From positions 1 through 38,091 of IMG/VR virus record IMGVR_UViG_3300010370_000091: a stretch of DNA of 38,091 nt; one strand, given 5' to 3'. Below, piece by piece: positions 17,356 through 33,485 of the stretch. The notes under the pieces are model-generated. The model worked only from the letters and a program-made list of their open reading frames with translations, ran no database searches and had not been told where the DNA came from. This stretch comes from a virus. The position numbers were made by a program, and so were the translations under genes. The stretch's first letter is position 1, and each line of letters opens with the position of its first letter.

Positions 17356-20300
17356 ATGGCAACTGGCATAACACGTTCACCGTTTGTTAAAAAACAAACT
17401 ACAGACTACGGTTATGGCAAAGACAGTGAAGGTAATACTACCTATACTGATGCGAATGGTGTAACAACAATTGTTGTCCCTGCTGGTCAATCACCCAGTT
17501 TAAAGAAAGAAAAGTCTGCGTTAGGTAAGGCTGTTAATAAGGCTGGCGCATTGACACGTTTTTTGCCTTTTCAGCCACAGGCACAAAAAGATATTCTTGA
17601 AAGTTTACAGCAGTTAAAAGAAACTGGTAAAACACCTTCTAGTGTTACGGGTGGAATATTTAATACTTTGGGTCAAGTTATTAATTATACTGTTGGTGAG
17701 GGACCTAAAGAAATTTTGCAAGGTCTCGGTGAGGCGGTTAAACCCGTACAACGTTATGGTCAGTCTGCTATTAATGAACTTGCTGAGGGTCTCACTCAGT
17801 TAACTCGTCTTGGTTATGGTGAACCTTTATATTATAAGAAGGGTGTTTATAAGGGTCAAAAAATTGAGGCTAGTTGGAAAGATTTTGTTCGTCAAGCAAA
17901 AGACCCTAAGTTTAAATTGTTTGGTAAAGAATCTGTTACTGGTATGGGTGGTGTTGCTGGTGGAACTTTACAGTTTATTGCTGATGTCACTACCGACCCA
18001 ACAACGTATGTTGGTTTGCCTGCAAGTCAAGCATCCAAAGCAAATAAAGTTGCGTTAGCAACCAGAGTTGCAACAGAACTATATCCAAAGTATCCTGAAC
18101 TTAAATCTATTCCTAATTTGTTGGATAATATTGTTCGTTATGGTGCTGTTGAATTACCTGATTATGTTCGCAAAAATGAAAACATTTTTGTTGGCGTAAA
18201 ATATATGGGTTACGAAATCAAAAATAGTAGCGCCATTGCTAAAGCATGGCGACATACTTTGGGAGAAGTTAGTCCTGCTATTGGTGATGTTCTTTATAAA
18301 TATAAACCTAATTGGGCTGTAAAAACTGCTCGTGGTGGTGTCGCACCTTTGGTTGCTCAGGGTGTGGGGCGTGGTATAAAATCTGGTGACGATTGGATTA
18401 GCACATATCTTGGTGGTATAGCAGAACATTCTGCAAGCATCAGGTCTAGAGGTAGGGCTGCTCTTTATAGTCAAACACAGTTATCTAAAGGTTATGGAAT
18501 TTTGCGTGCGATTGAACAACTACCTGATGCCGCACAACAAGAAGTATACAAAATTATTGAAAACCGTAGTCCTGTTTATGCAAGCAGTCAAGAAGTTCAA
18601 GACATTGCTGATGCTTTCAGAAAATGGGATGATGAAGCATATCAAGCAGTTGACGACTACAGAGTTCAACAAATTCGCAACAAGTGGGGTGCTTTACCAA
18701 ATGAACTTGGTGTAATAGACGACCACTTGTATCACTCCATGACCCCTGAAGCACGTGATTGGATGATGTCCGAAGGTTATAAGAGTGGCTGGTTTGATGA
18801 CCTAGATTTCAGTGGTGCAGATATAGAGACAGGTAAAGGTATTTCTAGTCATCGTAAGTTGCGTGACGCAACGTTTGACGCAGAAGGCAACCTTGTCCAT
18901 GCTGAAAAGTTTATGGGCGAAGATGTTATTGTTGGTAGCATTGAGGCTATCAACGAAATTTCTATGCGCAAAATTGGTATTCCTTGGTTCAAAACAGATG
19001 TTCCGACTATTATGATGGACAGTTTACATTCTTATAGTAGAATGATGGAACGTACGGCATATTATGACAGAATGATGGATTTTGGTCCTGCTGTTATTAA
19101 ACCTTTAATTAAACATGTTGTTCCTGACGCTGCGCTTGTTGCAGAACTTGAAGATGTTGCAACGAAGTTGCTTGCTACGCAACGTTCGTTGAAGAGTCGT
19201 ATTTCTCGTGGTGTAAAGAAATTAGCGGGGACAAAAGAAGCGGCTGCAACAGAGTTGGAGAATGTTTCTCAAATTGCTATTGATGTTTTGTCAGGCAAAA
19301 TTGCTCAAAGGGTTGGTATTACTGCCGAAACTGAAACAATTTTGAAAGAAATGGCAAAAATTAAAAAGACCTTGAATAAGGCAACCAAAGCCGCAACAAA
19401 ACTTAAGGCTGAACTTAAAGGTGAATCTAACGATGTTATAATCAGTTTGGTTAAACAGGTTGATGCTTTTGAGAAAGCATTGGCTGAAGGTACTGCTGAC
19501 CGTTTTGTTACATTACAGGAACTTCATAAAGAGTATTTGTCGTGGTATCCTAATGCTAACGATTTTGAGGGCAAGAGTGCGGAATGGTTGGCTGAACGAA
19601 TTGTTCGTGCTGCGGGTGGCGCAGACGCTATTGAGGCTCGTGAAGCGAGCCGTGTTGCACAAAACAACTTTATACGTGAGCAAATAGACGCATTACCTGA
19701 GACATCTATTGAAGAACGTCAATTTTTGGAAAACAAGTTGATTGAAAATGAAACAGAACTTGAAGCAATTCAACGTATAAACGATGTAAAAAACAATGCA
19801 ACTTATGCTAGTGAAGGTTGGATTTATGGTTTTGTTCCCGACACTAGTGGTGAACCTGTGCCGTTCCAAATTTTCACAACCGCACCTATGGATAATGAGT
19901 TTGGTACATTTAGCCAAATGGATGATGCTATTGCTGGTCATGCTATTCCTGAGAGTGAGTTGTTGGATTTGCGTGACCCTGAAACTTTTTCTGCTTTTTT
20001 AAATCCAGAATTTTGGGCTGACGATTTAAATAAAGCATGGCGACAAGTTGGTATAACGGAGTATATATCTGAGTCCGATATTGCTAATATGATTGAAAAT
20101 AATGGTGTTTTGGATGAAACATTTGTGCGAGTTAATCCAGAAAAAGCAGAACTTTTGTCTGGTTTATGGGATATGAAAACTCGCATTGATGTTGCTAGGG
20201 CATCTGGCAATATTGAAAAATTGACCCATAATGAACTTGGACAGTTTTTTGAATGGTTTAAAGATGTGCAACAAAGGATTGCATATTCTTTCAGCCCTGA

Positions 20301-22602
20301 TAATTCTGATGCTGTTGGTGGTATTGCATCACAATGGTGGTTTAAAAACCTTGTTGATGATGCGGCAGGTAACGGCTATAAAGGTGTGTTGATGCCCGCA
20401 TCAAATATTTTTGGTGACGGTTACCATTTTGCTTCAGATGAATGGGCTGTGTTGGTTCCCGATAATTGGAAAACACCCAAGATTGGGCAAGCACCAACCG
20501 ACCCTTGGCAAACTGTTAAAGGTAACAAGTTTTTACAAAACTCGCTTGATTCCACTATGGAAATGCACCAGTTGTCTTTGCTGGATAATAACGAGAAACT
20601 TCGCAACATGGGTCTTGATGTTGAGGAATCGTTGGCTAAACGTTCCGAACTTACCGCACAGTTGGAAGAAACACAAAAACAGGACACTGCTTTCCGTACT
20701 TTAATGGAATTGCGTAATACTAATAATGTTTTGGTTGACGGCAAGTATGTGCCACGTGAGCAAGTTTTAGCAAAACTTGCAACTGCTGATACGGAATTAA
20801 AAAAGGTTTATGACAGCATAGACAAAGAAGTCAAACAGCAGATTGAGGCAAAGTTTGGTGTTGCAGAGTTGAATACGCAACGTTTGAAGTATGAGGAACG
20901 TTTGCCCATGTTGTTGGACCAAGCAAAGGTTTTGGAAACTTGGACTGAGGGTGCTGGTGCTGGTTTGAAGCAGGAAATTCAGGACATGATTTTGTTGATT
21001 AAGAGTAAACCTGCTAAGGGTTCTACTGGTGCAAGCAATGCTGCCTATGTTGATAAAGTGTTGAAATCTATTGAGACTAGTAGTTTGATTGATGACCCAA
21101 AAGTTGCTGAGGCTTATGACCGTGTTACAACCATATTGCATGCTGATGAGTTGAAGTTGGCTACCGTCAATGAAGAACTTGAACAAAGTTTGGATTGGTT
21201 GCAGATGGCTCAAATGGGTTTGTTGAATGGTAAACTTGTTAATGATGTTGCGGAAAAAGGTTGGCAAGAAATCAAGGGTATGGGTTTGCAGATGCCTAAA
21301 GAGGTTTTGGATGTTTGGGGTCCAAACATTAAGAAACTTCTTAATCAGGTTGAGTTTAGGGATTGGATGAAAAACCTAGACAGGGTGAATAACTATTGGA
21401 AACGTTGGGTTACTAGTACTGTTGGGTTCTTTGTTCGTAACGGTTTTTCGGGTATGTTTATGAATTATGCTGATGGTGTCACTAATGATGCTATTGAACA
21501 GGGTTTGAAATGGGCTGCGTTACAGAATGAAACTAAACGTGGTATTGCTAAGGGCGATATTTTTGCTAACTGGACTCAACGGGCTAAGATTACTGACCCG
21601 AACGAGTTGGCTAAAGCGGAATGGGTTACTCAAGTTGTTTTGGCTACAGGGCATGGTGTGACCGATGACTTTGCAGCGCCTACTATTGGTCGGCGTGGTG
21701 CGGTGTTGACGGATAAATATTTCCAGTTTTTTAATCGTAAAAATAAATTTGTTGAACGGGCGTTACGTTTGCCGATGGCAATAGATTCGTTTAACAAGGG
21801 TCAAACTTTTGATGAGGCTGTGGCACGTATTAATCGTATTCATTTTGATTACAGTGATTTGTCTAAGTTGGATAAGGTTGCAAAACGGGTTGTACCGTTT
21901 TGGGTTTGGACAAGCCGTAACGTTCCGTTGCAATTGACGCAAATGGCGGCACGCCCTAAAGCATATTATGAATATGAGAAAGTCAAAAAGTCTTTTCCTG
22001 TTAACCCTAATTTGATTATGCCTAAATGGATTGCCGACAAGGATGCTTTGGGTATTATGGGTAATTGGGTGTTGACACCTGATTTGCCTCATATTCGTTT
22101 GGCGCAACAGTTGCAATCTATTACAACACCTACTGGTATTTTGGGGCAGGCAGCGTTGCCGTTCCGTTTGCCAGCAGAATTGTTGGCAAACAGACAACTT
22201 GGTATTAGTACTGGACCATTCCGACAAGACGAAGTTAAGGGTTATACTGCTCTTATGGCAAAGTTTATAGGTCCATTGATGGGTACAAAATATGTTTATT
22301 ACGATAAGAATAAGAATCTTGTTATGGATTCACGTGTAAACTATATTTTGGAACAGGTTTTCCCTGCATTGGGACAGTTCAATCGTATTACTGGTGGTGT
22401 GTTTGGTGGCAAAGATACGTTAGAAGAACGTATGGTTTCTAGTTGGTGGAACTATTTTGGTGTGCCAGCACGTGAAATTGGTGAGAAACAGCAAGAATCT
22501 GAAGTTGTGCGTAGAAAATGGGTTGCTAGCCAGTTGGTAAAAGATTTGCAAAAACTCGCTAATCAAGAACAAGCGCAAAAGTTAGAAGAACAACAACCTT
22601 AA
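17356..22602 (+). CDS. Giant internal virion / polyvalent protein
   Basis: This 1748-residue protein is the largest product. No single family covers it. Visible parts are a basic N-terminus, Gly-rich helices at residues about 100-210 (GGVAGGTLQFIADVTTDPTTYVGLP), long Lys/Glu coiled coils at about 600-720 and 1090-1290, a central globular region at about 810-1045, and a folded C-terminal third with many Trp/Phe residues. Size, location at the end of the late arm and composition fit a core or ejected protein such as a T7 gp16-like or polyvalent protein. The central part ends with a GYKGV and DEWAVLVPDNWK arrangement reminiscent of ADP-ribosyltransferase-like domains, but this is weak. Its stop overlaps the stop of the convergent gene. 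Confidence 0.85.
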   Translation: MATGITRSPFVKKQTTDYGYGKDSEGNTTYTDANGVTTIVVPAGQSPSLKKEKSALGKAVNKAGALTRFLPFQPQAQKDILESLQQLKETGKTPSSVTGGIFNTLGQVINYTVGEGPKEILQGLGEAVKPVQRYGQSAINELAEGLTQLTRLGYGEPLYYKKGVYKGQKIEASWKDFVRQAKDPKFKLFGKESVTGMGGVAGGTLQFIADVTTDPTTYVGLPASQASKANKVALATRVATELYPKYPELKSIPNLLDNIVRYGAVELPDYVRKNENIFVGVKYMGYEIKNSSAIAKAWRHTLGEVSPAIGDVLYKYKPNWAVKTARGGVAPLVAQGVGRGIKSGDDWISTYLGGIAEHSASIRSRGRAALYSQTQLSKGYGILRAIEQLPDAAQQEVYKIIENRSPVYASSQEVQDIADAFRKWDDEAYQAVDDYRVQQIRNKWGALPNELGVIDDHLYHSMTPEARDWMMSEGYKSGWFDDLDFSGADIETGKGISSHRKLRDATFDAEGNLVHAEKFMGEDVIVGSIEAINEISMRKIGIPWFKTDVPTIMMDSLHSYSRMMERTAYYDRMMDFGPAVIKPLIKHVVPDAALVAELEDVATKLLATQRSLKSRISRGVKKLAGTKEAAATELENVSQIAIDVLSGKIAQRVGITAETETILKEMAKIKKTLNKATKAATKLKAELKGESNDVIISLVKQVDAFEKALAEGTADRFVTLQELHKEYLSWYPNANDFEGKSAEWLAERIVRAAGGADAIEAREASRVAQNNFIREQIDALPETSIEERQFLENKLIENETELEAIQRINDVKNNATYASEGWIYGFVPDTSGEPVPFQIFTTAPMDNEFGTFSQMDDAIAGHAIPESELLDLRDPETFSAFLNPEFWADDLNKAWRQVGITEYISESDIANMIENNGVLDETFVRVNPEKAELLSGLWDMKTRIDVARASGNIEKLTHNELGQFFEWFKDVQQRIAYSFSPDNSDAVGGIASQWWFKNLVDDAAGNGYKGVLMPASNIFGDGYHFASDEWAVLVPDNWKTPKIGQAPTDPWQTVKGNKFLQNSLDSTMEMHQLSLLDNNEKLRNMGLDVEESLAKRSELTAQLEETQKQDTAFRTLMELRNTNNVLVDGKYVPREQVLAKLATADTELKKVYDSIDKEVKQQIEAKFGVAELNTQRLKYEERLPMLLDQAKVLETWTEGAGAGLKQEIQDMILLIKSKPAKGSTGASNAAYVDKVLKSIETSSLIDDPKVAEAYDRVTTILHADELKLATVNEELEQSLDWLQMAQMGLLNGKLVNDVAEKGWQEIKGMGLQMPKEVLDVWGPNIKKLLNQVEFRDWMKNLDRVNNYWKRWVTSTVGFFVRNGFSGMFMNYADGVTNDAIEQGLKWAALQNETKRGIAKGDIFANWTQRAKITDPNELAKAEWVTQVVLATGHGVTDDFAAPTIGRRGAVLTDKYFQFFNRKNKFVERALRLPMAIDSFNKGQTFDEAVARINRIHFDYSDLSKLDKVAKRVVPFWVWTSRNVPLQLTQMAARPKAYYEYEKVKKSFPVNPNLIMPKWIADKDALGIMGNWVLTPDLPHIRLAQQLQSITTPTGILGQAALPFRLPAELLANRQLGISTGPFRQDEVKGYTALMAKFIGPLMGTKYVYYDKNKNLVMDSRVNYILEQVFPALGQFNRITGGVFGGKDTLEERMVSSWWNYFGVPAREIGEKQQESEVVRRKWVASQLVKDLQKLANQEQAQKLEEQQP

Positions 22603-23912: not shown

Positions 23913-24257
23913 TTAATCTCCTATGATTCCGTATTTGTTGTTTAATATTTCCATGATAACTGGATTCTGTTTCAATAATATTTCTAGTTTGTTTACTGCC
24001 GATTTTGTTTTACGCCAAGCATGCGACTTCGCTGATATACCCACTTCACGGGCTGCTTCTTGAAATGTTTTGCGTTCATAGTAAATCAAGTATATCATCT
24101 GCTGGTCAGTCTCGTCCATAGATGCAACTGTTTTAGCCACAGCGTCAAGCAACACAATGTCATCATCATAGTCATGTGCAACCGCATACGGTTGCATCAA
24201 CCACTCTATATCGTTTGAGTGATATTTCTTTTGGTTAGGGATATCTTCAGGAATCAT
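23913..24257 (-). CDS. Sigma-70 region 4-like DNA-binding protein
   Basis: This 114-residue protein has a C-terminal helix-turn-helix (about residues 36-92) like sigma region 4: LLDAVAKTVASMDETDQQMIY, then YYERKTFQEAAREVGISAK, then a recognition helix HAWRKTKSAVNKLE. No region 2 is seen, so it cannot be a complete sigma factor. It may act as a transcription activator, an anti-sigma or partner protein, or a region-4 replacement. It ends the nucleotide-metabolism block and could control the late arm, which has repeated GGGAAC motifs. Confidence 0.8.
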   Translation of the reverse strand: MIPEDIPNQKKYHSNDIEWLMQPYAVAHDYDDDIVLLDAVAKTVASMDETDQQMIYLIYYERKTFQEAAREVGISAKSHAWRKTKSAVNKLEILLKQNPVIMEILNNKYGIIGD

Positions 24258-24708
24258 ATTTTTCGTTTATCATCATGTCCATAACGTCCTCAGGTTGTAA
24301 CAAGTACCCCATGCTGGGGTTACCGCTACGCCACGCAAACTTATGGTACGCTTTCGGATTGAATCTGTCTTTGTTCGCTTTCAAATAACGTTTCAATCTT
24401 GGCACAGACACAATGACGAACGCACCATCTAAAGCGTACACATACACCCACCATTCCGCTTTTGTCACCGCTAAACCTGATGGTTGCCATAATGGTTCCC
24501 CGTTGTCGTCAAGACGGCGACGGGGATTCTGAACCATTTCAACAACCATACGACCATTACGGTAACGGTCAGTTTTAACTTCAAACGCACCACTACTAAT
24601 TTTTTCTAGAAATTCGGAAACAAGTTTCTCACCTTTGTGACCAAACGACAGGTCTGTTTGCCAATCGTGGGGCATTGGTCCAATATCGTAATCGGATTTT
24701 TTACTCAT
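24247..24708 (-). CDS. Putative PD-(D/E)XK nuclease
   Basis: This 153-residue protein contains FEVKTDRYRNGRMVVEMVQNP (starting at 42), in which E43-V-K45 would be the E-x-K of a PD-(D/E)XK site. E27 in HKGEKLVSEF is a candidate first acid. SGLAVTKAEWWVYV (78-91) supplies the following helix and strand. It looks like a small phage endonuclease or Holliday-junction-type nuclease. It lies directly after a RusA resolvase with a 4-nt overlap, so the two may act together on recombination intermediates. The exact family is not certain. Confidence 0.72.
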   Translation of the reverse strand: MSKKSDYDIGPMPHDWQTDLSFGHKGEKLVSEFLEKISSGAFEVKTDRYRNGRMVVEMVQNPRRRLDDNGEPLWQPSGLAVTKAEWWVYVYALDGAFVIVSVPRLKRYLKANKDRFNPKAYHKFAWRSGNPSMGYLLQPEDVMDMMINEKYDS

Positions 24709-25043
24709 TCTTTAAACCCAACTATGACGGTCACTTGTTTATCATCTTCCCATGCTGTACCATTTAAGCCGTCCATCAATAACTTTATGTAGTTATCTAG
24801 GTCGCCACGCAACAGCGTTGGCGTATCGGATTCAATTGGTCGTAATTCAATAGCGATGCCCTCTTTTTTGAACGTGCAAGTCAACATTACTTCACCTTCA
24901 TATTTCGGTCCAGTGTATGCTGTGCGAATAACATCTTCCGATTCTAGGGTGCGGGCTGGTGTATAAACACGTCCACGTCTAGTCATGCGTGGTCGCCCCT
25001 TGGGAATAGGTTTTGTTTTTATGAATTGTCTATGTTTTTTCAT
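24705..25043 (-). CDS. rusA: RusA-type Holliday junction resolvase
   Basis: This 112-residue protein has the RusA layout: an early KPIPKGRPRM basic segment (11-20), then RGDLDNYIKLLMDGLNGTAWEDDKQV (from residue 79). The latter has D81 and D83 as metal-binding acids, K87, and D100/D101 as the third acid. It would be a dimer cutting four-way junctions and removing branches before packaging. Length is typical of the family. It overlaps genes on both sides by 4 nt. Confidence 0.92.
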   Translation of the reverse strand: MKKHRQFIKTKPIPKGRPRMTRRGRVYTPARTLESEDVIRTAYTGPKYEGEVMLTCTFKKEGIAIELRPIESDTPTLLRGDLDNYIKLLMDGLNGTAWEDDKQVTVIVGFKE

Positions 25044-25624
25044 GTTTTCCTAGTCTGTATAAAGGTGTGGAATGGTCCGCCAGAACCGTTGTCAAATCTG
25101 GCGCTGATAGTTAATGACTTTATTAAAACACGTTTCGCTGATGCTTGCACTATTTTTTTGTTGCTGGCATACATTTGCATAGCACCTAAACCATAATGCG
25201 CACCCGACCCGATGGCGTACAGATTGTTTGTGTCCATTTCTGTACTATAGTCTGCGTCTATTTGATAGATGACACCGTTGGCGCACACTAATGAATCTAT
25301 TGATGCTTCTGCTGGATTGGATTCGTATTGCGGTAGTCCTAAGCCGTTTTGTTCTAAACATTCTCTGTAGGCTGGTATGAATTGGCTGACCATAAACTTT
25401 GTTAGTTTTATACCGCCAAGTTTGGGAGGGAGTTGCGGCGGATTAAACACGTGTTGTATAATGTTTGCGCCACGTGTGTCGCCTGCTACACCTATGAAGT
25501 ATTTGCCTACGGTGATTATTTTTGATTGTGTCATTTTGCCGACACGTCCGTAGTCGTCTGTCCATTGGCTGTCTGAACCTATAGCGCAGTAATCTTCGCC
25601 TTGTATTGCTAGGATTGTTGTCAT
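25040..25624 (-). CDS. Proteasome/HslV-like Ntn-hydrolase peptidase
   Basis: This 194-residue protein begins MTTILAIQG, so removal of Met exposes a Thr as in proteasome beta subunits and HslV. All expected active-site positions are present, numbering from Met1. They are T2 (nucleophile), D18 in AIGSDSQ, K35 in MTQSKII, a GSG turn at 139-141 (YAIGSGAHYGLGAM), and D178/S181/G182 in ARFDNGSGGPF, the D-x-x-S-G-G element. The overall length suits an HslV-type subunit. It probably assembles into a ring and degrades protein or matures a phage product. No HslU-type unfoldase lies next to it, though two AAA+/RecA-fold ATPases are in the same arm. The setting, between primase and RusA with 4-nt overlaps, is unexpected. 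Confidence 0.88.
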   Translation of the reverse strand: MTTILAIQGEDYCAIGSDSQWTDDYGRVGKMTQSKIITVGKYFIGVAGDTRGANIIQHVFNPPQLPPKLGGIKLTKFMVSQFIPAYRECLEQNGLGLPQYESNPAEASIDSLVCANGVIYQIDADYSTEMDTNNLYAIGSGAHYGLGAMQMYASNKKIVQASAKRVLIKSLTISARFDNGSGGPFHTFIQTRKT

Positions 25625-26535
25625 GAGTGTACTCGTATCACTAGTTTGTCTATTTCTAGGTCGCCGTTGGGACGTAGATGATATTTACCCCACCGCCTGT
25701 CGGCGGTTTTGATAATGATTTTGGTTTGACTAGGGTTGAGTCCTGATTTGACACACTCGTAACCAAGTTTGGCTAGGGTTGATGAACGGTCTTTGGACGG
25801 TAGTGGTCCGTCACGCCAAATGACTTTGCCTAGCGGAGACAGAACTTGCATAGCCTCGTCTAATGTGGCATCATATTCTGTGTGCATAATCCCAGGTGCG
25901 GGTTTAATTACAGGTTTATAATGTGCCGCAAGGCGGGCGATGTCGGCTGGTGTGGTGCGATTAGCGATAGCCATAGAAACAAAGTCGCAGATATGTAGAA
26001 CTGATTGGAAGTCGTTGGGGTTTAGAACTCGTTGGTTGTGTGTGGTGTCGTCAATATAATTTGGGTATGGTAGGCGAACATAGTTGCCGTATTGTCCGTG
26101 TTTGAGTGTGGTTTGTTTGGGGTTTACTTCTGTGGCTGGTACGTCAGCGACCTGATGCGCAGCCAATAGCATGTTGCGCATAATCTCAGCGGACACTGGT
26201 TCTGTGGCGAACACCCAAACATGGTAACCTTTGGAACGTGAACGTTCTATCCACGAGATGACACCACCTGCACGTAGTGCGTCATGTAACTGTCGGGCTT
26301 GATGTAAAGATTGTTCTAATCCTAAGTCAAAATCTGAACAGCCCCACACAACTGACGGTACACCGTTTATGGGTACAATCGGATATACACCGATACGTTC
26401 CGAACCGTTTAGGTGACGTTCAAATGTGCCACGATTAAGTGGTAGTTTTGCGCAACCGCCACTGTCTGTGCCGTAAACGTCACCACGTCCACGAAACAAT
26501 TTAACATAATTGTCTAACAAATTTCCGTCTATCAT
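25621..26535 (-). CDS. AEP-type primase
   Basis: This 304-residue protein has archaeo-eukaryotic primase superfamily motifs. These are CSDFDLG (66-72) with the two acids of motif I, SRSKGYHVWVF (99-109) with the basic/His motif II, and GNYVRLPY (150-157) near motif III. The C-terminal part (KLGYECVKSGLNPSQTKIIIKTADRRW) resembles PriCT-type helical domains of phage and plasmid primases. It would make primers for replication. It follows a RecA-fold helicase, the usual partner. It overlaps the peptidase gene by 4 nt. Confidence 0.83.
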   Translation of the reverse strand: MIDGNLLDNYVKLFRGRGDVYGTDSGGCAKLPLNRGTFERHLNGSERIGVYPIVPINGVPSVVWGCSDFDLGLEQSLHQARQLHDALRAGGVISWIERSRSKGYHVWVFATEPVSAEIMRNMLLAAHQVADVPATEVNPKQTTLKHGQYGNYVRLPYPNYIDDTTHNQRVLNPNDFQSVLHICDFVSMAIANRTTPADIARLAAHYKPVIKPAPGIMHTEYDATLDEAMQVLSPLGKVIWRDGPLPSKDRSSTLAKLGYECVKSGLNPSQTKIIIKTADRRWGKYHLRPNGDLEIDKLVIRVHS

Positions 26536-26544
26536 ATACCCCCT

Positions 26545-27621
26545 TTACCAATCTGTGAGAATTTCTTGCATGGATAATTGTTCTACTTCGGGTTGCACAA
26601 TGTTTTCTTCAAGTCGGTATGGTAGCACCCCGTTCTCCAACCGTTTCAACCGACCTGTTCCTGCTTCAATTAAAAAGTCCATATCGTCCAACAGGACGGA
26701 CGCAGGACGTTTACATTTAACCAAGTTTAACGTAACAGTATCCATGTGAATACGCAGATTGTATTGCAATTCTTCTATCTTGGACATGATTCGTTCAGCG
26801 TTTGATGCTTTATCTAATTTTTCTTGCAGTTCACGAATGTGTCCTTCTATTTCAAATCGTTTACGGCGTACACCAACAATGTGTGTTGCTTGTTGTTCAC
26901 CACCGTAAGCACCTGAACTAATAGTCATTTTACGTCCGTCAGCACCTGCTGTACGGCTGGACTGGTGCAATACGATTAGCGGAATATTGTGACGTTTACC
27001 GAACGCTTTAATGCTGTTGGCTTTTGACGGTACGTCTTCGCCACCACCTGTAATCAAATCCAAGTAGTCCACAACGATTAGTTGTGGGTCACCTAGTACG
27101 TCTATTGTTTCCGATAATGCACGTTCCATTTCAATCAGCGACACAGTTTGGTCAAACACCGCCAAGTTCGGGAAATGTTCTAATGCTGTGTTGCGTAACA
27201 GTTCAATGGATTGTCTGTCGTTTTGTGATATGCGTTCTTCAAGAATGTTTGCGTCAATGCCGTGAGTTACGCAAGCAAGTTTAATCAATGTTAATGTTCG
27301 TGGCTCATCGGGACAAAAGTAGATTACACGTTTGTCTTTGTTCGCCACAAGAATCTGTAGCAACGCCAATGTTTTACCGCTATGACTATAGCCGTTTATA
27401 ATGCACATCTCTGATGGTGCAATACCACGCATCTGTGCATCTATCTCATGGAAACCTAGATAGATTCTTTCTTGTGGTGATTGCGCCCAATGAACATAAT
27501 CATCTGCGGCTTTATGTAATGGTGTGTAATACGCTAATGATGCCGTAGACAAGTCGGGCGTGGGAAGAATTTCCCCACGCCCCAACTTTGCCCAACGACC
27601 CACATAATCGGGGTCGGTCAC
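26545..27621 (-). CDS. RecA-fold replicative helicase (DnaB-like)
   Basis: This 358-residue protein has a RecA/DnaB C-terminal-type ATPase: Walker A GYSHSGKT (77-84), a catalytic-acid region PDEPRTL (104-110), Walker B LIVVDYLD (181-188), and motif H3 IPLIVLHQSSR (213-223) with a sensor Gln. There is no DnaB N-terminal domain. Residues 1-60 only resemble a short linker. It probably encircles DNA at the fork with the primase encoded next. It begins 3 nt after the upstream gene's stop. Confidence 0.88.
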   Translation of the reverse strand: MTDPDYVGRWAKLGRGEILPTPDLSTASLAYYTPLHKAADDYVHWAQSPQERIYLGFHEIDAQMRGIAPSEMCIINGYSHSGKTLALLQILVANKDKRVIYFCPDEPRTLTLIKLACVTHGIDANILEERISQNDRQSIELLRNTALEHFPNLAVFDQTVSLIEMERALSETIDVLGDPQLIVVDYLDLITGGGEDVPSKANSIKAFGKRHNIPLIVLHQSSRTAGADGRKMTISSGAYGGEQQATHIVGVRRKRFEIEGHIRELQEKLDKASNAERIMSKIEELQYNLRIHMDTVTLNLVKCKRPASVLLDDMDFLIEAGTGRLKRLENGVLPYRLEENIVQPEVEQLSMQEILTDW

Positions 27622-31100: not shown

Positions 31101-31244
31101 TTACCACCCTTTCATAAGTAGTTTGATTATTATATTTATAACACATAACGCAACTAACATTTGATACGCTTTCGCAAACAAACGTTTACTAGGCGTATCA
31201 TTCTCTAACCAGTATGCTATCCTTGACCACCATTCCTCTATCAT
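31101..31244 (-). CDS. Small membrane protein
   Basis: This 47-codon gene has a polar, Trp-rich start (MIEEWWSRIAYWLEND), a short basic segment, and a C-terminal transmembrane helix (MLVALCVINIIIKLLMKGW). The start overlaps the stop of the MoxR-partner-like gene (ATGA). It may target host membranes or anchor a complex. Confidence 0.7.
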   Translation of the reverse strand: MIEEWWSRIAYWLENDTPSKRLFAKAYQMLVALCVINIIIKLLMKGW

Positions 31245-32086
31245 ATTAACCCCAATCCTGTAATTGTGGACATAATGAACTTCATACCATCTTCCTCAAA
31301 GTTGCCAGTGCCTGACTCAAAGTTATCAATCACAACGTCCGCATTAACATGCGATTTCAACTTGCAATTAGACGCTGAACCGTAACTTTTGCCAATAATT
31401 TTCTTAGCCTCACCCCACTTGGACATCTCCATATTAGAGAACGAGATACGCCTAAGCATAGACGGGTGAGCAATTGCGAACATCAAATTATCAATGTCCA
31501 ACAACTGTTGCGAATCATGCAACTTCGTAAGCATACTATGATAATGACCACCACTAGCGGTTGCAATCTCGCTGTAGACTTCAACACCGACACCCATACG
31601 GTTAATGATATCAACCAACGAACATATCATCGCACCACGCTGACGGATTGTCTCTGCTGAAATATTGTAATTAACTGTACCATTAATTAACAATCGCACA
31701 ACACGCCCCATGCGTGTTTGTGGCACATCAACATAATCAACCATACACTCAGGGTCGCCAATGAGATAACGGTCAATGTCACCTGACTCGCCAGTGATAT
31801 TGAACTTAGTCTCAAACATGTTACCGAACGTAGCGCTAATGATATTGTCCAACGAGTTAATCAACTTATCAACTTCGGGACGTATCTCATGCCAACCACG
31901 TGTACCTAAATCGCAGGCTTCGTCCAAACTAGCGGAACCAGCCCAAGAGTTATTATCACGTTTATCGGACGACTTACGTTTCGTATTACTACGAGCATGC
32001 ACCAGCAAATCCGCTAATGTGTCGTATTCCTCAGTCCAAACGCTATATGTTCCGTGTCCATTATATGTGTGCATAAACTGTCTCAT
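31241..32086 (-). CDS. MoxR-ATPase partner protein (DUF7192-like)
   Basis: The ATG at 32086 is preceded by GGAG with 6 nt spacing and gives 281 residues. An upstream GTG (32140) has no such site. The protein lacks a named motif, but NNSWAGSASLDEACDLGTRGW and the C-terminal FESGTGNFEEDGMKFI resemble uncharacterised proteins coded beside MoxR-type ATPases in phages. A substrate or adaptor of the ATPase gene just upstream is the likely role, by gene neighbourhood. I am unsure of the family name. Confidence 0.75.
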   Translation of the reverse strand: MRQFMHTYNGHGTYSVWTEEYDTLADLLVHARSNTKRKSSDKRDNNSWAGSASLDEACDLGTRGWHEIRPEVDKLINSLDNIISATFGNMFETKFNITGESGDIDRYLIGDPECMVDYVDVPQTRMGRVVRLLINGTVNYNISAETIRQRGAMICSLVDIINRMGVGVEVYSEIATASGGHYHSMLTKLHDSQQLLDIDNLMFAIAHPSMLRRISFSNMEMSKWGEAKKIIGKSYGSASNCKLKSHVNADVVIDNFESGTGNFEEDGMKFIMSTITGLGLI

Positions 32087-32120
32087 AATATCTCCAATCG
32101 TAGTTGTTGTTGTTTCCCTA

Positions 32121-32147
32121 ACTTTAACATACCAGTCCACGTCCGCA
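32121..32147 (-). repeat. Divergent copy of the GGACGTG/GTTGAAGT element
   Basis: The leftward strand reads GGACGTGGACTGG then TGTTAAAGT, resembling the element at 33547, 34490, 34807 and 34878, and lies 35 nt ahead of the start at 32086. It is the weakest copy. Confidence 0.35.
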
Positions 32148-32183
32148 GGGAAGGAAACGAACGTGAACTGGTAGTCACGAACG

Positions 32184-33485
32184 TTACACTTCTACAGGCG
32201 CACCCTTAGGTACGATAACCGATTCCATAACCTTAGATACCACATCAGGCTTAACACCCTTGAGTAAACGCATATCAATAGCGTCCTGCCAAGTGAACCC
32301 ACCTGCAAGTAACTTAGCACCACCAACACTAGCACGTGGCGACACAATCACTTTCAGACCGTGATTATCAACGTTACGGCGTGCAGTACGAACAATATGC
32401 AACCATGTTGAACCATGTTCCATATCCAACCCCGTACCACGCACCAACTCAGTCTCTAGGCGTTCGTCAATCTTAACGTGCATCATCGTGAATCGGTCAA
32501 TCGTAGCACCATCAATCGGCGCACGACCAACATACTCAGCAGTAGCACCATTACCCCACGTGTTCGCCGCCGCAATCGCAACAAACTTCGGGTGACGCTT
32601 CACCATACCGTCAGGAAACGACATGCTATCGTTAGATAACGCATCATTCAACACGGTCAAAATATTCGGATTACTAGCATCAATCTCGTCCATTAAGAAC
32701 ACGCCACCGTGTTCATAACGGTCACGGAAACCCGTAGACTGATACAAGTTATCGCTAATAGCCTTGTAACCCTTGATATCCGCTTTAGACGACTGCGAAT
32801 TGAACGGCTCGGCGCTAAACGCCAACCCCAACGATTCGGCAACCTGACGGGCAATCTTAGACTTGCCAACACCAGCGCTACCAGTCATCCACACATGTTC
32901 ACCGCATGCAACCGCACGAAGAACCTTAGGGAATATCTCGTGAGTCAATCCTGTCACGGGACGAGTTTCACCTGTCGGCAAAACCACGTTAGTTACCAAC
33001 GGACGAACATCACGCAACAACTCCATAACATGTAAACGTTCCCGCACCAACGCTGACTCAATCAACTCCTTAACAGCGTTTTCGTCCACGCCAACAGAAC
33101 GCAAAGCGTCCTGAATCACGTCACGAACAGCGTTAGCAACCTTGTCACCTGTCGGCACAGACGGCGAAGCCGTAGGTGCAGACGCTGGTAACGGTTGTGT
33201 CGGTTCAGGCAACGGCTTAGCAACCAACACACACTCACCACGAGCCGCATATTCATTACATGCGTCCATAATGGTATTGCGGATTTCATCAACCGTTTTC
33301 GCCATCGGCTTACCAACCCACTTGCGGTCAAACACACGACTGTACATAGCAATCAACGTGTTTTTATCCAAATACCTAATTTGATACGGATATTCTCTCC
33401 CGTTCGGGAATTGAACAACCGCTACCTGTTCCGTGACATTAACACGGATAACATTCATAGCCTTCCCTGCCATAACATTACTCAC
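32184..33485 (-). CDS. MoxR-type AAA+ ATPase
   Basis: This 433-residue protein's AAA+ core runs from about residue 180 to 400. It has Walker A GSAGVGKS (202-209), Walker B FLMDEI (263-268), a sensor-1 region VAIAAANTWGNG, and an arginine segment near TIDRFTMM. This is the MoxR/CbbQ/CobS branch. The first 90 residues form a separate domain, followed by a Pro/Thr/Ser linker (residues 90-113). It would remodel protein complexes, perhaps with the next gene. GTG and two ATG codons (33473, 33458) compete as starts, and none has an ideal ribosome site. The arm's proteasome-like peptidase makes an unfoldase role worth testing. Confidence 0.88.
   Translation of the reverse strand: MSNVMAGKAMNVIRVNVTEQVAVVQFPNGREYPYQIRYLDKNTLIAMYSRVFDRKWVGKPMAKTVDEIRNTIMDACNEYAARGECVLVAKPLPEPTQPLPASAPTASPSVPTGDKVANAVRDVIQDALRSVGVDENAVKELIESALVRERLHVMELLRDVRPLVTNVVLPTGETRPVTGLTHEIFPKVLRAVACGEHVWMTGSAGVGKSKIARQVAESLGLAFSAEPFNSQSSKADIKGYKAISDNLYQSTGFRDRYEHGGVFLMDEIDASNPNILTVLNDALSNDSMSFPDGMVKRHPKFVAIAAANTWGNGATAEYVGRAPIDGATIDRFTMMHVKIDERLETELVRGTGLDMEHGSTWLHIVRTARRNVDNHGLKVIVSPRASVGGAKLLAGGFTWQDAIDMRLLKGVKPDVVSKVMESVIVPKGAPVEV

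Follow-up and report, generated by a model that had tools for sequence, protein, structure and literature searches.

What is a proteasome-type peptidase doing among the replication genes of a small freshwater phage? In the window (the whole 38,091-nt stretch of viral DNA that was analyzed), the initial annotation had noted a proteasome/HslV-like gene between a primase gene and a RusA gene. We asked whether its product looks like an active enzyme, to which branch of the proteasome family it belongs, and what its genomic setting says about its role.

The Peptidase Gene and Its Viral Relatives

The proposed open reading frame is real, although its strand had to be corrected: the plus strand of the interval is full of stop codons, and the gene lies on the minus strand (Table 1). 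It begins ATG ACA (Met-Thr) and shares four nucleotides with each neighbor, an ATGA with the primase gene (25621-25624) and another four with the RusA gene (25040-25043), as described before. All of the motifs claimed for the product were found, namely T2 after the initiator Met, D18, K35, G139-S140-G141, and D178-N-G-S181-G-G. No in-frame ATG, GTG, or TTG occurs between M1 and the preceding stop codon, so a propeptide encoded from a usual start codon is impossible and Thr2 is the second residue; a propeptide of the 20S beta type is thereby excluded. By analogy with the related enzyme BPH (see below), Met1 would be removed to expose Thr2.

Table 1. Features of the window discussed in the text
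Feature	Position	Strand	Remarks
Group I proteasome-like (T1) peptidase subunit	25040..25624	minus	194 aa, predicted nucleophile Thr2, without propeptide
Met1 (initiator, removal expected) and Thr2 (predicted catalytic nucleophile) codons	25619..25624	minus	T2 invariance and structural alignment
AEP (TOTE-type) primase	25621..26535	minus	PF22548, E 2e-19; upstream of peptidase
RusA-like Holliday junction resolvase	24705..25043	minus	PF05866, E 1e-14; phrog_140; downstream of peptidase
DnaB-like helicase	26545..27621	minus	PF03796, E 1e-14; same operon
phrog_13596 protein	24247-24708	minus	Among the best conserved operon genes, ~50-100% identity where found
1748-aa protein	17356-22602	plus (opposite strand)	Same place in nearly all relatives, weakly conserved
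MoxR/CobS-type AAA+ ATPase	32184..33485	minus	PF07728, E 4e-12; phrog_249
CobS/MoxR-type ATPase and DUF7192/phrog_1909 protein	31241-33485	minus	Constant pair across the podovirus group

Two scans of IMG/VR yielded 94 loci, and at least 586 relatives were confirmed in the second scan. In a conservation set of 95 viral sequences including the window protein (63 of them distinct), T2, D18, K35, G48, and D178 are identical throughout, while residues 140 and 181 are each either S or T. The start codon alternates between ATG and GTG among relatives, with T2 fixed in either case. Close relatives, in which a loss of conserved residues would have spoken against an intact enzyme, thus retain all five invariant positions. 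Pairwise dN/dS values are mostly 0.01 to 0.15 with a maximum of 0.22, indicating strong purifying selection. As judged from these sequences, the gene is kept as an active-looking enzyme.

Fold and Family Membership

A profile search, proposed at the outset as a check, returned a peptidase family rather than a non-proteolytic Ntn family. The protein scores 24.3 bits against the Pfam Proteasome profile PF00227 (gathering cut-off 22.4), and the catalytic Thr1/Ser1, Asp17, and Lys33 and the oxyanion Gly47 of proteasome-like proteins correspond to T2, D18, K35, and G48. Among phage families, phrog_1040 (“peptidase HslV family”) matches best (E 6e-21); all 38 aligned relatives match it too (best E 4e-33), with the window peptidase covering only 130 of the 277 profile positions. 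It belongs to PHROG 1040 by match, but the name implies HslV, which finds no support in the membership tests (see below). The cut-offs for 20S beta subunits were likewise not reached (TIGR03634, 19.9 vs. 224 bits; TIGR03690, 16.3 vs. 191.9 bits). A profile search of the PDB matched BPH, the beta-proteobacteria proteasome homolog, at 1.6e-9, making BPH the nearest solved structure by sequence and profile. Taken together, the PHROG, Pfam, and PDB matches are far better than chance would give.

An AlphaFold (AF2) model built from the 38-sequence alignment reached a mean pLDDT of 88.4 and a pTM of 0.85. Its best fold match is again BPH (5ovs; Z 20.1, 176 residues, rmsd 3.0), with model residue 2 falling on Thr1 of BPH in the structural alignment; HslV (Z 19.3) and proteasome beta subunits (Z ~19) follow, with ~170 residues aligned. 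Both helices H1 and H2 are present in the model, where helix 71-92 is clear and long, and residues 93-109 form a 17-residue linker of low confidence between this helix and strand 110-115. In a library of viral structures, the closest match, at 73% identity, belongs to an uncultured Caudovirales phage and bears the name HslV; many other phage proteins follow. Residues, profiles, and predicted fold thus agree with the earlier reading of an intact N-terminal Thr hydrolase of the proteasome/HslV type.

In a maximum-likelihood tree, the window protein falls in a well-supported viral clade of 66 rows that includes Actinomycetia phage DSL-LC01, the ct2KA10 record, and Arthrobacter phage Hum25. Its neighbors in the tree come from rhizobia, Streptomyces, a Moorella phage, and Vibrio phages, and HslV, BPH, and PrcB branch separately. 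The deep joins are uncertain owing to long branches, including the join that places the viral clade with AAH-like rows and apart from the one BPH. R51, P63, and D125-Y126 are found in the viral clade as well as in the rhizobial/Streptomyces set and are absent from HslV, BPH, and PrcB, except for Y126 in the one BPH. The rhizobial/Streptomyces set resembles the published AAH group in its taxonomic spread (PMC8665760); we call these rows “AAH-like” from that spread (rhizobia, Streptomyces, Firmicutes phage) and not from a published AAH alignment. A genome scan with the viral-clade alignment found no close bacterial homolog.

With AAH proteins, members of group I, the window peptidase has in common the lack of a propeptide and the occurrence in phages, and with the AAH-like rows a neighboring, though uncertainly joined, position in the tree and R51, P63, and D125-Y126. 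It is only ~24 to 29% identical to the AAH-like proteins, however, and the two clades, while adjacent, are separate. Most of the AAH-like bacterial proteins (L104-L134) carry S/T at the position of the oxyanion Gly (G48), GCG where the phage clade has GSG, and Ser at the Asp166 position (D178), so that the active site of the phage clade is the more canonical one. With BPH (PDB 5ovs, 5ovt, and 5ovu; PMC5777263) it shares the fold, a long pore-loop region, and the Met-Thr start, but the two proteins are only ~20 to 24% identical and are separate in the tree, and while the pore loop of the BPH compared has a net charge of −6, the long window loop (residues 93-109, 17 aa) has a net charge of only −2. 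PPH, named as a proteasome homolog of phages and their hosts, is also a phage-borne group I homolog (PMC8665760), but it comprises ~140 residues and lacks helix H2, in contrast to the 194 residues and helix 71-92 of the window peptidase. The window peptidase ranks among the proteasome-like subunits of group I (MEROPS T1) but is not HslV proper.

Could such a fold serve a reaction other than general proteolysis? Connectase proves that a T1 fold is capable of transpeptidation (PMC8665760), and BPH was silent in vitro on the model substrates tried, so that it may need a cofactor or be specialized (PMC5777263). A non-proteolytic T1-fold enzyme, such as a connectase-like ligase, or a highly specific processing enzyme is nevertheless an unlikely identity for the phage protein, given that the model contains both H1 and H2 and lacks the connectase-type two-helix insertion between S3 and S4, and that the triad is full and canonical, as are G48, S/T140, D178, and S/T181.

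Less likely still is an HslV of viral origin that pairs with the HslU of the host to work as HslVU. The fold and catalytic residues are those of HslV, the HslV structures score close to BPH, matches to HslV profiles exist (weak, E 2e-6 to 3e-6), and the 73% identical phage protein bears the HslV name. The scores, however, are ~27 bits against equivalog cut-offs of 137 and 158 (NF003964, 27.6 vs. 137 bits; TIGR03692, 27.0 vs. 157.75 bits), the protein is apart from HslV in the tree, and the residues R51, P63, and D125-Y126 that it shares with AAH-like proteins are absent from HslV. Its H2-S7 linker is long, in contrast to the short one that takes the place of the long BPH pore loop in HslV (PMC5777263), and no HslU gene lies nearby. 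HslV is not listed for Actinobacteria (Table 1 of PMC8665760), so HslU would be unexpected if the host is actinobacterial.

An Accessory Gene in Several Genome Slots

To what extent is the gene bound to the replication operon? Among 80 loci retrieved via the primase (11 of them unscorable), the peptidase gene lies between primase and RusA in 31 (DnaB at least 72% identical to that of the window) and elsewhere in 2, while in 36 the operon is present without it. Within its own phage clade, the gene is kept between the primase and RusA in 31 of 31 scorable peptidase-bearing loci (same DnaB threshold). No match to the peptidase was found in the whole records of 27 peptidase-less relatives, using a query that succeeded in all 11 of the known carriers to which it was applied. 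In three relatives (L084, L086, and L189), the primase adjoins RusA and a peptidase of a different clade (a 45% identical subclade in L084 and L086) follows DUF1599. A special tie to DNA replication, or to the neighboring primase and RusA, is weakened, since relatives carry the gene in other places, the head module among them, and 36 related operons do without it. From its varied presence and position, the peptidase gene is accessory: it was acquired or relocated more than once, moves between phage lineages and genome slots, and most likely stands outside the replication machinery.

Different relatives (L013, L023, L042, and L043) have different extra genes inserted between primase and RusA, a gap that therefore looks like a cargo slot; in L042 and L043, one of these genes resembles, by eye, a PnuC-type membrane protein. 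The 1748-aa protein encoded on the opposite strand (Table 1) is perhaps an injected virion protein.

Position Beside Head Genes

Prohead proteases are usually encoded beside the portal gene, ahead of the scaffold and capsid genes. In a clade of large phages, the peptidase gene is found between a metallophosphoesterase gene and an SPP1-type portal gene, upstream of the scaffold and major capsid genes, and in Planktophila phage E7 (ct2KA10 record) and L028 it directly follows the portal gene. Because this is the usual site of a prohead protease, we tested a role in head maturation. Other candidate proteases are scarce in the records with this head context: an S14 (ClpP-type) protease was found in 0 of 17 and an S49 protease in 0 of 15, and an S78 protease was found only in DSL-LC01, where the T1 gene lies elsewhere.

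With the portal as an anchor, 45 loci of the large-phage group carry the peptidase. It is missing from 22 relatives whose upstream sequence spans at least 2.5 kb and whose gene order is unchanged, with similar capsid genes. An essential role in capsid formation is thus unlikely, as these 22 relatives have the same portal, scaffold, and capsid genes without the peptidase. The portals of the large phages are of the SPP1 type, and the window phage has a P22-type portal with a scaffold; neither SPP1 nor P22 is known to use a head protease. In the window, moreover, the gene lies in the replication operon and on the strand opposite to the head genes. Head maturation, favored at first by the position and the missing proteases and then weakened by presence/absence variation within one phage group, leaves a prohead protease that migrated into the replication operon as a very improbable origin.

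Candidate Unfoldase Partners

The window was said to lack HslU, and a search of the record with AAA_2 (PF07724, HslU/Clp-type) indeed gave no match; a ClpP-type protease had no match there either. Of the 26 peptidase-bearing records, only 2 exceeded the PF07724 cut-off, with sequences that are ClpA/B-like by eye and far from the peptidase gene (~60 kb in the one record measured). We therefore rejected a phage-encoded HslU or ClpX-like partner.

The MoxR/CobS-type ATPase, which the initial annotation had raised as a possible unfoldase, is present in the window and, where the upstream sequence suffices, in 16 of 17 loci that bear the peptidase, but it is most improbable as a dedicated partner because it is common without the peptidase (14 of 25 related peptidase-less loci with sufficient upstream sequence), and it has its own constant neighbor in DUF7192 and lies ~6.5 kb from the peptidase gene. 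A host unfoldase (ClpX/ClpC, Mpa/ARC, or HslU) may serve the peptidase instead.

Carrier Phages and Their Hosts

WhiB, a marker not known outside actinobacteria and their phages, is encoded in all nine tested carrier records of the large-phage and ct2KA10 types (outside the small-podovirus group and L045) and was found in none of the other 17 carrier records, the window’s group included. A search of the window phage for WhiB and tRNA genes as host clues found neither; its host may be actinobacterial.

Two records deposited in GenBank as “Caudovirales sp. ct2KA10,” OX376640.1 and OX376641.1 (L032 and L323), are by their titles LanE43-AprE7 and LanE43-AprF5, the two phages cultured on “Ca. Planktophila” strain LanE-43 (PMC10202952). 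Both E7 and F5 carry homologs of the peptidase, which places the family in proven actinophages. AAH was not found in any actinophage by Fuchs et al. (2021), and the Planktophila phages are candidates to fill this gap. In DSL-LC01 (L031, OQ999401.1), a WhiB gene comes immediately after the HslV-like peptidase gene (37959-38648), and no protease is mentioned in the main text of the genome paper.

Discussion

Phage members of the family have been catalogued before, which makes the gene less surprising than first thought: PPH and AAH proteins of phages were described in 2021 (Fuchs 2021; PMC8665760), a “proteasome-like” gene is listed for Alteromonas phage V22 (PMC7289586), and both PHROG 1040 and the database entry named HslV already existed. 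Our literature search found no experimental study of a phage member. The present analysis adds a measure of how large the viral clade is, evidence that it is mobile, arguments against two of the suggested roles, and a connection to actinophages in culture.

We favor, with a probability of roughly 60%, an intact self-compartmentalizing peptidase of group I (HslV/BPH/AAH) that would form a BPH-like ring, act independently of an unfoldase or with a host partner, and play an accessory, conditional role. In BPH, Met is removed to expose Thr1, the subunits form a tetradecameric double ring that reacts with epoxomicin, and no unfoldase is known (PMC5777263). The mechanism that we propose for the phage peptidase, from Met removal through ring formation to degradation, follows this analogy. 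The methionine aminopeptidase of the host would take off Met1 and expose Thr2 as the N-terminal nucleophile, which would form the triad with D18 and K35, with G48 at the oxyanion hole. The subunits would then come together as a BPH-like homo-oligomer, in a single or double ring, which could digest proteins that are unfolded or have exposed loops, either with no dedicated AAA+ partner or with a host-encoded one. From the accessory distribution, DNA replication is a less likely function than a conditional one, for example in host takeover or in countering host defenses; the peptidase may remove host defense or regulatory proteins or help with protein turnover during infection.

A further reading, which we consider rather unlikely, sees in these proteins a propeptide-free viral proteasome clade that serves as swappable cargo of freshwater actinophages and whose rings, with a host unfoldase (Mpa/ARC, Clp) or none, destroy host defense proteins or regulators early in infection. 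If true, this would be a virus-owned proteasome redirecting the degradation system of its host.

The window peptidase joins a large and little-studied family, with its at least 586 confirmed relatives in IMG/VR, whose gene is mobile, selected, and dispensable and for which a MoxR partner and an essential head-protease role are argued against. The family extends from the small freshwater phage of the window to phages grown on abundant lake actinobacteria, and its presence in two cultured phages that infect an abundant freshwater actinobacterium allows its role to be tested in a real infection.
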